From Oceanibaculum indicum P24 (lineage in GTDB: Bacteria > Pseudomonadota > Alphaproteobacteria > Oceanibaculales > Oceanibaculaceae), in NCBI RefSeq assembly GCF_000299935.1, contig NZ_AMRL01000002.1:62001-126000 (forward strand): 64,000 bases of DNA. The letters run 5' to 3'. Positions 23,274-48,938 of this stretch are shown here, piece after piece. A model generated the notes under the pieces. That model had not been told where the DNA came from and ran no database searches. It was given only the letters and a program-made list of their open reading frames with translations. Made by a program: the position numbers and the translations under genes. The stretch's first letter is position 1. Each line of letters opens with the position of its first letter.

Positions 23274-23300
23274 TTTAGAACGACTATATATAAATATATC
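23274..23300 (+). promoter_or_regulatory. AT-rich promoter region upstream of irr with an iron-control-like half-site
   Basis: In the otherwise GC-rich 293-base gap between fabA and irr, TTTAGAA (23274-23280) is followed by ATATAT-AA-ATATAT (23286-23299). TTTAGAA is one arm of the iron control element bound by Irr in rhizobia. The AT block includes TATAAA, suitable as a -10 box for irr, whose ATG is 42 bases downstream. Autoregulation of irr is therefore plausible, but the second arm is not intact. Confidence 0.4.
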
Positions 23301-23341: not shown

Positions 23342-23773
23342 ATGGACAGACTCCGTACCCACACCCACAACATCGAGCGGCTGAAGGCGGCCGGGCTGCG
23401 CCCGACCCGTCAGCGCCTGGCGCTGGCACAGCTGCTGTTCGGCACTGGCGACCGCCATGTGACCGCCGAACAGCTGCATGGCGAGGCGCTGGAAGCCAGG
23501 GTGCCGGTCTCGCTGGCCACGGTTTACAACACGCTGCACCAGTTCACCGAATCCGGGCTGCTGCGCGAAGTGGTGGTGGAGGCCAGCCGATCCTATTTCG
23601 ACACCAACACCGGCAGGCACCATCATTTCTTCGTCACCGACAGCGGCGACCTGATGGACATCCCGGCCGGCGATATCGCGCTGGGCGAGCTGCCGCTGCC
23701 GCCCGAGGGTACGGAGATCGACAGCGTCGAGGTTATCATCCGCGTACGGCGCGAACCGCGGGCGGCCGGCTGA
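23342..23773 (+). CDS. irr: iron response regulator Irr (Fur family)
   Basis: Fur-superfamily repressor/activator that acts when iron and heme are low in alphaproteobacteria. The 143-aa protein has the winged-helix segment LRPTRQRLALAQLL with VPVSLATVYNTLHQF as recognition region. The heme-linked triple His (residues 93-95, RHHHFFV) marks Irr rather than Fur. The N-terminal heme-regulatory Cys-Pro motif of Bradyrhizobium Irr is absent. The structural zinc CxxC pairs of Fur are absent too. It is divergent from fabA-fabB-fabI and directly upstream of the rubrerythrin cluster, likely its target. Confidence 0.93.
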   Translation: MDRLRTHTHNIERLKAAGLRPTRQRLALAQLLFGTGDRHVTAEQLHGEALEARVPVSLATVYNTLHQFTESGLLREVVVEASRSYFDTNTGRHHHFFVTDSGDLMDIPAGDIALGELPLPPEGTEIDSVEVIIRVRREPRAAG

Positions 23774-23848
23774 AGGGGACGGCCCGCTGAGGGTTGCAAT
23801 TAGCGGTATTTAATTACCCCGCGCGGTGGTGGTGACGGGGCCGTGTGA

Positions 23849-23877
23849 GAATGAGTTTCATTCAAAATATTATTTTG
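23849..23877 (+). promoter_or_regulatory. two adjoining perfect palindromes (candidate Irr/Fur operator)
   Basis: GAATGA-GTT-TCATTC (23849-23863) is a perfect dyad and shares its last base with a second perfect dyad, CAAAATA-T-TATTTTG (23863-23877). Both lie in an AT-rich island of the 288-base gap between irr and the rubrerythrin gene. The first resembles Fur-family operators. Position 60-70 bases upstream of a TTGACT box could suit an activator or an upstream operator. Confidence 0.6.
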
Positions 23878-23898
23878 TAACAAGCGGTTAAAATTCCG

Positions 23899-23947
23899 TT
23901 TGGAACAATTCAAATCTATTGACTTGCCTCCGGCTTCGCTCCATATC
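23899..23947 (+). promoter_or_regulatory. putative rubrerythrin promoter with an imperfect iron-control-like box
   Basis: TTTGGAACAATTCAAA (23899-23914) is an imperfect dyad resembling the iron control element (TTTAGAA...TTCTAAA). It stops 4 bases before TTGACT (23919-23924), a good -35 box. A possible -10, CATATC, follows after 17 bases at 23942-23947. The rubrerythrin ATG is at 24062, giving a leader of roughly 110 bases. Confidence 0.45.
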
Positions 23948-24061
23948 CACTCACGTTGAAGTGATCGACAGCCCGGCGCCGAACCCCAGCCATCGATCCG
24001 CAATCGGACATCACGGCATCGGCTCCGGCTTCATACATGCGAGAGCAGGAAGGAGAGAGTC

Positions 24062-24484
24062 ATGGCCAATCTGAAGGGTTCCAAGACCTTCGACAATCTG
24101 AAGGAAGCGTTCGCCGGCGAGAGCCAGGCGAACCGCCGCTACCTCTATTTCGCCCAGAAGGCCGACGTCGAGGGCTATAACGACGTTGCCGCCGTGTTCC
24201 GCTCGACCGCCGAGGGCGAGACCGGCCACGCGCACGGCCATCTGGAGTTCATGGAAAGCGTCGGCGACCCGGCCACCGGCGAGCCGATCGGCGCCACCGA
24301 CCTGAACCTGAAGGCCGCCATCGCCGGCGAGACGCACGAGTACACCGACATGTACCCGGGCATGGCGCGCACCGCCCGCGAGGAAGGCTTCGACGAGATC
24401 GCCGACTGGTTCGAGACCCTGGCGAAGGCCGAGAAGAGCCACGCCGGCCGCTTCCAGAAGGCCCTCGACAGCCTGAACAGCTAA
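24062..24484 (+). CDS. rubrerythrin-type diiron protein without rubredoxin domain
   Basis: Ferritin-like four-helix protein, 140 aa, expected to reduce peroxide or handle iron at a diiron site. All seven usual ligands can be placed: Glu20, Glu53 and His56 (EGETGHAH), Glu90 and Glu93 (GETHEY), Glu124 and His127 (EKSHAGRF). The C-terminal rubredoxin domain of classic rubrerythrin is missing, so electrons must come from another protein. The next gene encodes a Fe-S protein that might serve. A GGAAGGAGAG ribosome site precedes the ATG. A strong terminator at 24499 follows, yet the two genes behind it keep the same orientation. Confidence 0.93.
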
Positions 24485-24614: not shown

Positions 24615-25952
24615 ATGAAGGAAGGCAGTCTCGAGGCGCCGACCCGCCACCCGCTGGCCTGGACCGACCCGGATTTCTATGATGAGGCGAAGCTCGACGA
24701 GGAGCTGCGCCGGGTATTCGACATCTGCCATGGCTGCCGCCGCTGCTTCAATCTGTGCGACAGCTTCCCCCGCCTGTTCGACCTGATCGACGAATCGGAA
24801 TCGGGCGAGCTGGATTCCGTCAGCTCGGCGGACTTCAAGCCGGTCGTGGACGCCTGCACGCTGTGTGACATGTGCTTCCTGACCAAGTGTCCCTATGTGC
24901 CGCCGCACGAGTTCAACCTGGACTTCCCGCACCTGATGCTGCGCTACCGCGCCGTCGAGCGGAAGAAGCAGGGCACGCCCTTCGTCGAGAAGCAGGTCAC
25001 CGAGACCGACCGCAATGGCAAGCTGGCCGCTCCCGTCGCCGGCATCGCCAACTGGGCGACCGATCTGAAGAACGGCACGACCCGAGGCCTGATGGAGAAG
25101 GCCGGCGGCATCGACAAGCGCGCCGCGCTGCCGAAGTTCCATTCCAAGACCTTCACCCGCGCCGCCAAGAGCGACGTGCCGGAGGTCAATACGGCCGCCC
25201 CGGCCTACGGCCGCAAGGCGGCGCTCTACGCCACCTGCTTCGTGAACTACAACAATCCCGACACCGGCATGGCCGCGCGCCGGGTGCTGGCGAAGAACGG
25301 TGTCGAGACCGAGGTGGTCTACCCGTCCTGCTGCGGCATGCCGCAGCTGGAACAGGGCGACATCGAATCGGTGGCGAAGAAGGCGCGATCCGTCGCCCAG
25401 GAAATGAAGCCCTGGATCGACAAGGGCTACGACATCGTGGCGCTGACGCCGTCCTGCGCACTGATGCTGAAATTCGAATGGCCGCTGATCGTGCCGGATG
25501 ATGAGGATGTGAAGCGGCTGTCAGCGGCGACGAAGGATATCAGCGAGTACGTCGTCGATATCGCCAAGAAGGAAGGGCTGGCTGAGGGCATCCAGGCGCT
25601 GGATGGCGGTGTCACCGTCCATATCGCCTGCCATGCCCGCGCCCAGAATATCGGCCAGAAGGCAGCCGAGATGCTGCGCCTGATCCCGGACACCAAGGTC
25701 TCGGTGATCGAGCGCTGCTCCGGCCATGGCGGCTCCTGGGGTATCTTCAAGGAGAATTTCGACATCGCCCTGAAGGTCGGAAAGCCGGTTGCCCGGCAGG
25801 CGCTGAAGGAGGCGAACAAATATGTCGTCTCCGAATGCCCGCTGGCCGGCCTGCACATTCTGCAGGGGATGGAGGAGATCGAGAAGGACGCCGCCATTCC
25901 CAGCCAGTCCGAACACCCCATCGAGCTGGTCGCCAAGGCCTACGGGCTGTGA
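24615..25952 (+). CDS. Fe-S oxidoreductase with ferredoxin and CCG domains (GlpC/HdrD-like)
   Basis: Predicted electron-transfer protein of 445 aa. The N-terminal half binds two Fe-S clusters through Cys38/41/44/48 ([11 protein letters not shown]) and Cys81/84/87/92 ([13 protein letters not shown]); the latter has four rather than three residues before its last Cys. The C-terminal half has two cysteine-rich (CCG) domains as in heterodisulfide reductase and GlpC. The first is complete (ATCFVNY...YPSCCGMPQ). The second begins IACHARAQN and ends CSGHGGSWG, with Ser replacing the middle Cys. No FAD or membrane segment is seen. It lies between rubrerythrin and DUF3501 genes; as reductant of the rubrerythrin it is an inference. 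Confidence 0.85.
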
Positions 25953-25988: not shown

Positions 25989-26585
25989 ATGATGCCTGCT
26001 ACGGCAAAGCAGATCACGCACGCGGATATCCTGCCGCTGCCTGACTACATGAAGATCCGCAAGGAGCGCCGCAGCGCCGTCGTGGCGCTGAAGAAGAACC
26101 GGCGCCTGGCGGTCGGCCCGCACGCTACCTTCTATTTCGAGAATTTCGAGACTATGCTGAGCCAGGTTCAGGAGATGCTCTACATCGAGAAGGGCGGCGA
26201 TGAGCAGGTCGAGGACGAGCTGAGCGCCTACAACCCGCTGATCCCGCAGGGGCGCGAGCTGGTCGCCACGGTGATGTTCGAGATCGATGACGAGGTGCGC
26301 CGTCGCCGTGTGCTGGCCACCCTCGGTGGCATCGAACACCAGATGTTCATCAAGGTCGGTGGCGAGACCGTGAAGGGTGTCGCCGAGGACGATCTCGACC
26401 GCACCACGGCGGACGGCAAGGCATCCTCCGTGCAGTTCGTGCATTTCCCCTTCACCGAGGCGCAGATCGCGGCCTTCCGCAAGCCGGGCGCCGAGGTGGT
26501 GCTGGGCTTCAGCCACGAGAATTACCCGCACATGACGGTGATGCCCGAAGCGGTGCGCGAGGCGCTGGCGAAGGATTTCGACTGA
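25989..26585 (+). CDS. DUF3501 family protein
   Basis: Protein of unknown function, 198 aa, matching DUF3501 by its start (ITHADILPLPDYMKIRKERR) and the conserved acidic helix EMLYIEKGG...EDELSAYNPLIPQG. It is soluble, with no signal peptide and no cysteine. It follows the Fe-S gene by 36 bases behind GGAGG, so the two are probably one operon. This family recurs beside rubrerythrin and CCG-domain proteins in proteobacteria, which suggests a shared task in iron or peroxide handling, but its biochemical role is not known to me. Start could be the first or second of two consecutive Met codons. Confidence 0.8.
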   Translation: MMPATAKQITHADILPLPDYMKIRKERRSAVVALKKNRRLAVGPHATFYFENFETMLSQVQEMLYIEKGGDEQVEDELSAYNPLIPQGRELVATVMFEIDDEVRRRRVLATLGGIEHQMFIKVGGETVKGVAEDDLDRTTADGKASSVQFVHFPFTEAQIAAFRKPGAEVVLGFSHENYPHMTVMPEAVREALAKDFD

Positions 26586-48345: not shown

Positions 48346-48780
48346 TTACTTCATCGGGCGCCGGCGCGTGGAATTCAACGGCACGCCATAGAGTTCCAGC
48401 CGATGGCCCACCAGCCGATAGCCAAGCTTCTCGGCAATCAGCTCCTGCAGCTTCTCGATTTCCTCATTCTGGAATTCGATCACTTTCCGGGTCTCGATAT
48501 CGATCAGATGATCGTGATGTTCTTCCGGTGCTTCTTCATAGCGCGCGCGGCCATCGCCGAAATCGTGCCGTTCCAGGATATTCGCTTCTTCAAGCAACCG
48601 GACGGTCCGATAGACGGTGGCGATGGAGATACGCGGATCAATCGCCGTGGCGCGCTGATACACCAGCTCGACATCGGGGTGATCGGTCGAATTGGACAGC
48701 ACCTGGGCGATGACCCGGCGCTGCTCGGTCATCTTCAGGCCCTTTTCCAGGCACAGGCGCTCAAGGCGAGACGGTTCCAT
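48346..48780 (-). CDS. fur: ferric uptake regulator family protein (Fur/Mur)
   Basis: Metal-dependent repressor, 144 aa. Recognition helix region RISIATVYRTVRLLEEANIL and metal site HHDHLIDIETRKVIEFQNEE are intact. Only one cysteine is present, near the N-terminus, so the structural CxxC zinc sites of enteric Fur are missing, as is usual for the alphaproteobacterial Fur/Mur branch, which may sense manganese. ATG 48780 follows TTGGAGG; a TTG at 48798 adds six residues. It sits upstream of olsB by 54 bases, a common position in this class. Confidence 0.9.
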   Translation of the reverse strand: MEPSRLERLCLEKGLKMTEQRRVIAQVLSNSTDHPDVELVYQRATAIDPRISIATVYRTVRLLEEANILERHDFGDGRARYEEAPEEHHDHLIDIETRKVIEFQNEEIEKLQELIAEKLGYRLVGHRLELYGVPLNSTRRRPMK

Positions 48781-48938
48781 CGGTGCGATTGCCTCCAATT
48801 TTATCTGTCCCGACTATAACCAAAACGACGCCGCAAACCAAAGCGGTTCGCGACGTCGCCTGACAGATTGAGGCCGCTCCTCTCCAGACAGGGTCGCCAG
48901 CCTTGTGGCGGGCGGCCGGAAAGCGGGCCGGAGTGGCC

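Follow-up and report, generated by a model that had tools for sequence, protein, structure and literature searches.

A predicted compound Fur-Irr promoter ahead of the rubrerythrin gene of Oceanibaculum indicum P24

In Oceanibaculum indicum P24, the rubrerythrin gene (rbr) follows irr and is preceded by a Fur-type box, an Irr box (ICE) and a TTGAC-type promoter, in this order. The two boxes are conserved in the genus, occupy a defined place relative to the promoter and recur as a pair before rbr in a sizeable minority of relatives. The rbr promoter is judged, with moderate confidence, to be a compound one at which activation by Irr at low iron is opposed by Fur at high iron. As read from the DNA, iron control of rbr may be wired through both regulators, and the reach of the compound promoter probably extends to the Fe-S oxidoreductase and DUF3501 genes that follow. 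From these features we infer the binding of each protein, the sign with which each acts and any interplay between the two.

Layout of the irr-rbr region

The features of the window, that is, the whole 64,000-nucleotide stretch of DNA that was analysed, are collected in Table 1. Both irr and a fur-type gene are present, and on this point the gene calls agree with the initial annotation. The top NCBIfam model for the fur-type gene is the ferric uptake regulator, whose cut-off of 146 bits is missed (95.2 bits), and the product of rbr likewise falls below the cut-off of the NCBIfam rubrerythrin model (137.8 of 200 bits). The gene cluster consists of a single-domain rubrerythrin beside COG0247-type and DUF3501 genes (COG0247 being the number that we take, from the published description of such clusters, to apply to the GlpC-like oxidoreductase) and has the composition of an aerobic-type rubrerythrin cluster.

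Table 1. Predicted genes and promoter elements of the irr-rbr region and the fur-type gene, in window coordinates
Feature	Position	Strand	Basis
irr (IrrA, FUR family)	23342..23773	+	NCBIfam NF045678 IrrA, 208 bits (cut-off 150); Pfam FUR
Fur-type box, core = GAATGA-GTT-TCATTC (dyad 1)	23846..23864		genus alignment, relatives, classical-box core
Dyad 2, CAAAATA-T-TATTTTG, CAAAATATTATTTTG	23863..23877		not conserved as a dyad; TATTAT is a -10 candidate
Predicted Irr box (ICE), TTTGGAACAATTCAAAT	23899..23915		12/14 against TTTRGAANNNTTCYAAA-type dyad
-35 box TTGACT, 3 nt past the ICE	23919..23924	+	invariant in 4/4 genus genomes
-10 box CATATC, 17-nt spacer	23942..23947	+	TCCATATCC invariant across the genus (4/4)
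rbr, rubrerythrin, 140 aa, single-domain, without rubredoxin domain	24062..24484	+	Pfam PF02915
GlpC-like Fe-S oxidoreductase, CCG domains	24615..25952	+	Pfam PF02754; NCBIfam GlpC models below cut-off
DUF3501 protein	25989..26585	+	Pfam PF12007, 213.9 bits
fur-type gene, candidate binder of the Fur-type box	48346..48798	-	Pfam FUR family search

Transcription of rbr would start near 23954. No Rfam family matches the rbr leader at E values up to 1, and no terminator was detected between irr and rbr. A GTGATCGAC.GCCCGG stretch of the leader (23956-23975) is kept in all four genus genomes. Upstream of irr, TTTAGAACGACTATATATAAATATAT (23275-23300) comprises half an ICE adjoining a very A/T-rich stretch and is a possible candidate for an Irr autoregulation site.

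Three collections of loci were compared. The order is sampled by four genomes, all in one genus. Set A holds 110 rbr loci (L006-L115), 107 of them without identical upstream regions, and 81 of these have a same-strand irr upstream. The held-out set holds 80 further rbr loci, or 73 after removal of 7 duplicates (65 with irr upstream and 8 without). Plasmid relatives yield partial irr or rbr matches only, none of which spans 80% of the query.

The Irr box and the proximal promoter

The initial annotation had pointed to an iron-control-like box, TTTGGAACAATTCAAA (23899-23914), 21 bases past dyad 2 and ahead of the TTGACT hexamer at 23919-23924. Its place is as described, and its role is borne out by conservation in relatives, in the form of a predicted Irr operator abutting the -35 box. 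The pattern TTT.GA....TTCAAA is kept in 4/4 genus genomes. An ICE of at least 12/14 stands ahead of rbr at 71 of the 81 irr-rbr loci of set A, compared to 0.5% of shuffles, and at 50/65 held-out irr-rbr loci. Where irr is not upstream, such a box is found at 6/26 set A loci and at 7/8 held-out loci.

The promoter keeps a close distance to the box. Among set A loci whose ICE scores 11/14 or more, TTGAC starts 1-6 nt past the ICE in 72/78 and exactly 3 nt past it in 44; the held-out values are 47/61 and 28, respectively. Both sets combined give 119 of 139 loci with TTGAC at 1-6 nt; with these 119 promoters aligned on TTGAC, an A/T-rich -10 block stands out ~17 nt beyond it. The reading of 23899-23915 as an Irr box with a proximal promoter is well supported by this sequence comparison. 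Taken by itself, the ICE motif shows no genome-wide enrichment in the genus (7, 2, 4 and 11 occurrences per genome versus 5, 8, 10 and 9 for the reversed pattern). An extension of the ICE dyad by three bases per side was significant in set A (109/234 matches; permutation 76.5 +/- 6.6) but failed in the held-out set (70/183 versus 62.6 +/- 5.7) and is not claimed.

Some loci depart from this arrangement. At L025 and L028, the ICE sits downstream of the -10 box of a TTGACA promoter, a position that would alter the sign of control or the way in which it works. At four rbr loci that lack an upstream irr (L070, L080, L085 and L103), a TTAGAYYNAGTCTAA-type dyad, unlike the ICE, stands 24-59 bases before the gene, which may reflect takeover by another regulator. 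Away from rbr, two genomes of the genus (L131 and L132, ~1501-1517) have a near-perfect ICE-like dyad between genes for GCS2 (glutamate-cysteine ligase) and a GntR/FCD-type regulator; on its sequence, this dyad could be a site for Irr or the operator of the GntR/FCD-type regulator itself.

The Fur-type box

The GAATGA-GTT-TCATTC dyad GAATGAGTTTCATTC at 23849-23863 (dyad 1) and its overlap by one base with dyad 2, both reported in the initial annotation, are read directly from the sequence. Dyad 1 forms the core of a Fur-type box, TGAGAATGAGTTTCATTC, which has one variable base across the four genus genomes and reads TGAGAATGA[G/T]TTTCATTC in all of them; within the irr-rbr gap, the block TGAGAATGA[G/T]TTTCATTCAAAATAT is likewise the same in 4/4 except for one column. 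The classical 19-bp Fur box, as quoted in PMC4506495, has the AATGA-N3-TCATT core seen in dyad 1, and the Fur of Magnetospirillum binds a classical box with this core (PMC4506495).

Written in a 7-1-7 form, the window box is TGAGAATGAGTTTCA and scores 12/14, while two sister genomes reach 13/14. Boxes of this form with a score of at least 12/14 occur within 80 bp upstream of the ICE at 24 of 78 set A loci, compared to a shuffle expectation of 0.42 and to 1/76 in a downstream-of-promoter control. The 24 loci include the four of the genus, the near copies L012/L013, and L095, whose match resembles a second ICE and not a Fur box. As the 7-1-7 consensus was drawn up after viewing set A, it was tested on the held-out loci, where 12/61 have a box of at least 12/14 (expectation 0.16; downstream control 1/61) and 18/61 one of at least 11/14 (expectation 1.4; downstream control 5/61). 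Literature consensuses are also in excess in set A, e.g., the classical box at 10/14 or better in 20/78 loci versus 2.4 expected. Upstream of the ICE, 54/78 set A and 49/61 held-out loci lack a Fur-type box scoring 12/14 or more; as most irr-rbr loci have none, Fur is not a general component.

When no more than one mismatch is allowed, the four genus genomes contain 9, 5, 9 and 9 Fur-type boxes, and the reversed pattern gives 2, 1, 0 and 0; the window box has two mismatches and thus falls outside this list. Of 15 such genus loci inspected, six have the start of an ECF sigma-factor ORF within 350 bp and one that of a TonB-receptor ORF. ECF sigma-factor and TonB-receptor genes are usual Fur targets.

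The spacing of Fur box and ICE was compiled for 50 loci and is ~19 bp (17-20 bp) in 17 and ~49 bp (48-50 bp) in 10. Helical phasing of the two boxes, tested on the same number of loci with a 10.5-bp period (R 0.32, p ~0.006), is set aside because the loci share ancestry and the Fur motif can be read in more than one register.

A model of the compound promoter

In the window, the ICE ends 3 nt before the -35 box, with the centre of the Fur box another 51 bp upstream. Operators that lie immediately ahead of a -35 box suit an activator. When iron or haem is short, haem-free Irr on the ICE would aid RNA polymerase at the adjoining -35 box; when iron is plentiful, haem would remove Irr and Fe-Fur would fill the upstream box, and both shifts would lower rbr expression. 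Irr is described as binding DNA without haem, with a sign that is set by operator position (PMC7762939). The Irr of the window contains no cysteine and, thus, no Cys-Pro haem motif; together with its HXH-type motif, this suggests that haem more likely weakens its DNA binding than triggers its destruction. In Pelagibacter ubique, rbr mRNA is 1.57-fold up under iron limitation, a small change (PMC2864753). This rise fits Irr activation because two Pelagibacteraceae loci (L049 and L050), other than the strain of that study, show the same succession of Fur box, ICE and TTGAC.

Certain observations weigh on the other side. The R. sphaeroides ccpA gene, with its start ~40 nt past the Irr box, a similar distance, shows little Irr effect (PMC3413700); this case and the promoter-downstream ICE of L025 and L028 weigh against Irr activation. 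The imperfect match of both window boxes (12/14 each) and the unenriched ICE motif in the genus weigh against the compound promoter.

Alternative readings

Bare short dyads are common in the window, which holds 49 perfect dyads of 6-3-6 type and 11 of 7-1-7 type, with abutting pairs at three other places. When the local 80 bases (30% G+C) were shuffled 5000 times, at least one 7-base-arm dyad arose in 5% of the shuffles, as did two or more 6-base-arm dyads. As such dyads are likelier still in an A/T-rich local stretch, the question is settled by comparison, and what stands above chance is the conservation of dyad 1 and the Irr-like box, rather than the number of dyads. In the alignment of the gap among relatives, a check put forward with the initial annotation, dyad 1 (with its one variable base) and the Irr-like box are kept in 4/4 genomes and dyad 2 is not. 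The left arm of dyad 2 is kept in all four; its right arm reads TATTTTG, ATAAATG, TGTTTCA or CCTTTCA, so that the element is symmetric only in the window genome. Dyad 2 is therefore dropped as an operator (genus alignment, n = 4), and its earlier reading as an operator falls with the loss of the right arm in 3/4 genomes, the kind of result that the initial annotation had itself named as counting against it. A genome search with the dyad 2 15-mer, also put forward there, returns a single exact place and four further places at up to two mismatches. The suggestion of two regulators survives as Fur for dyad 1 and Irr for the third box, and not as regulators of dyads 1 and 2. That the two dyads act in tandem as operators, whether for two regulators or for two dimers, is very improbable indeed: both are perfect and have one base in common, but the right arm of the second is unconserved and a 7-base-arm dyad comes up in 5% of local shuffles. 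The conserved left arm of dyad 2 would instead belong to a distal -10 box if rbr had two promoters, with Irr acting on the proximal one and Fur, in the spacer, repressing a distal one (GTGAGA, 23845-23850; TATTAT, 23868-23873). A consensus scan finds this GTGAGA-17-TATTAT pair at 9/12 (shuffle mean 0.1), and TGAGA and TAT are kept in 4/4 genus genomes; however, the distal -35 box is weak, the final three -10 bases vary in the genus and the case is built on a single consensus match, which leaves two promoters distinctly unlikely.

The identity and the sign of the regulators can also be read differently. Each genome encodes three FUR-family proteins (in the window genome, the fur-type protein, Irr and a third one from a different contig), and the fur-type protein falls below the curated Fur cut-offs; dyad 1 could, on these grounds, be read by the third protein or by Irr itself. 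Such a reader is improbable, as genus boxes of the dyad 1 type precede ECF sigma-factor and TonB-receptor ORFs and Magnetospirillum Fur binds the same core. A control of opposite sign, in which Irr beside the -35 box would block RNA polymerase at low iron and Fur would help or be neutral, deserves somewhat more weight but is still doubtful. Rubrerythrin, an iron protein, would then be made when iron suffices. Irr does repress bfr and an mbfA-type gene in Bradyrhizobium (PMC3413700), and the ICE of L025 and L028 lies in a repressor-like place; however, the repressed cases of PMC3413700 have the start site inside the Irr box, the window ICE ends upstream of the -35 box, and rbr of P. ubique goes up, not down, at low iron. 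Irr activation opposed by Fur is thus favoured over Irr repression.

A broader proposal is advanced tentatively, namely that Fur and Irr, as related proteins that would bind DNA in opposite iron states, form an iron see-saw on rubrerythrin with preferred box spacings in many Alphaproteobacteria, including SAR11 relatives. The preferred spacings would let the two dimers exclude each other or would let both reach RNA polymerase.

Relation to known systems and significance

Irr boxes, Fur boxes and the rbr-COG0247-DUF3501 cluster are already known kinds. The window resembles the Irr regulon of Alphaproteobacteria in the ICE motif, the neighbouring irr gene and the promoter-proximal place of the operator, and differs in that the target is an aerobic-type rbr and the ICE stands 3 nt before TTGAC. 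With classical 19-bp and Magnetospirillum Fur operators it shares the core; here the box is ~98 bp upstream of the predicted start, beyond the usual promoter-overlapping place, and beside an ICE. The genes are those of the published aerobic-type rubrerythrin cluster (PMC5114695), here preceded by irr; the main text of PMC5114695 does not contain the words Fur, Irr or promoter. Like sulerythrin and ferriperoxin, which are single-domain rubrerythrins, the 140-residue rbr product has the ferritin-like domain only. Peroxidase activity is demonstrated for the Hydrogenobacter ferriperoxin (PMC3317640), to which the window rubrerythrin is likened by its domain. In the Magnetospirillum transcriptome, a rubrerythrin gene is lower under anoxia (PMC9549626), and neither Irr nor Fur appears as a whole word in the available text of that report.

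The paired Fur-ICE-TTGAC architecture before rbr is possibly the new part. No description of it was found in the literature searched; the regulon predictions of Rodionov et al. 2006 and the study of Rudolph et al. 2006 lay outside that search and, with the former in mind, part of the arrangement may already be in print.

A simple position rule (ICE, ~3 nt, then TTGAC) offers a means to look for Irr targets in lineages with an uninformative motif. The region further provides a testable promoter on which the sensing of free iron (by Fur) and of haem (by Irr) would converge to control one peroxide-defence gene, and this convergence may explain the response of rubrerythrin to iron starvation in SAR11-type bacteria.
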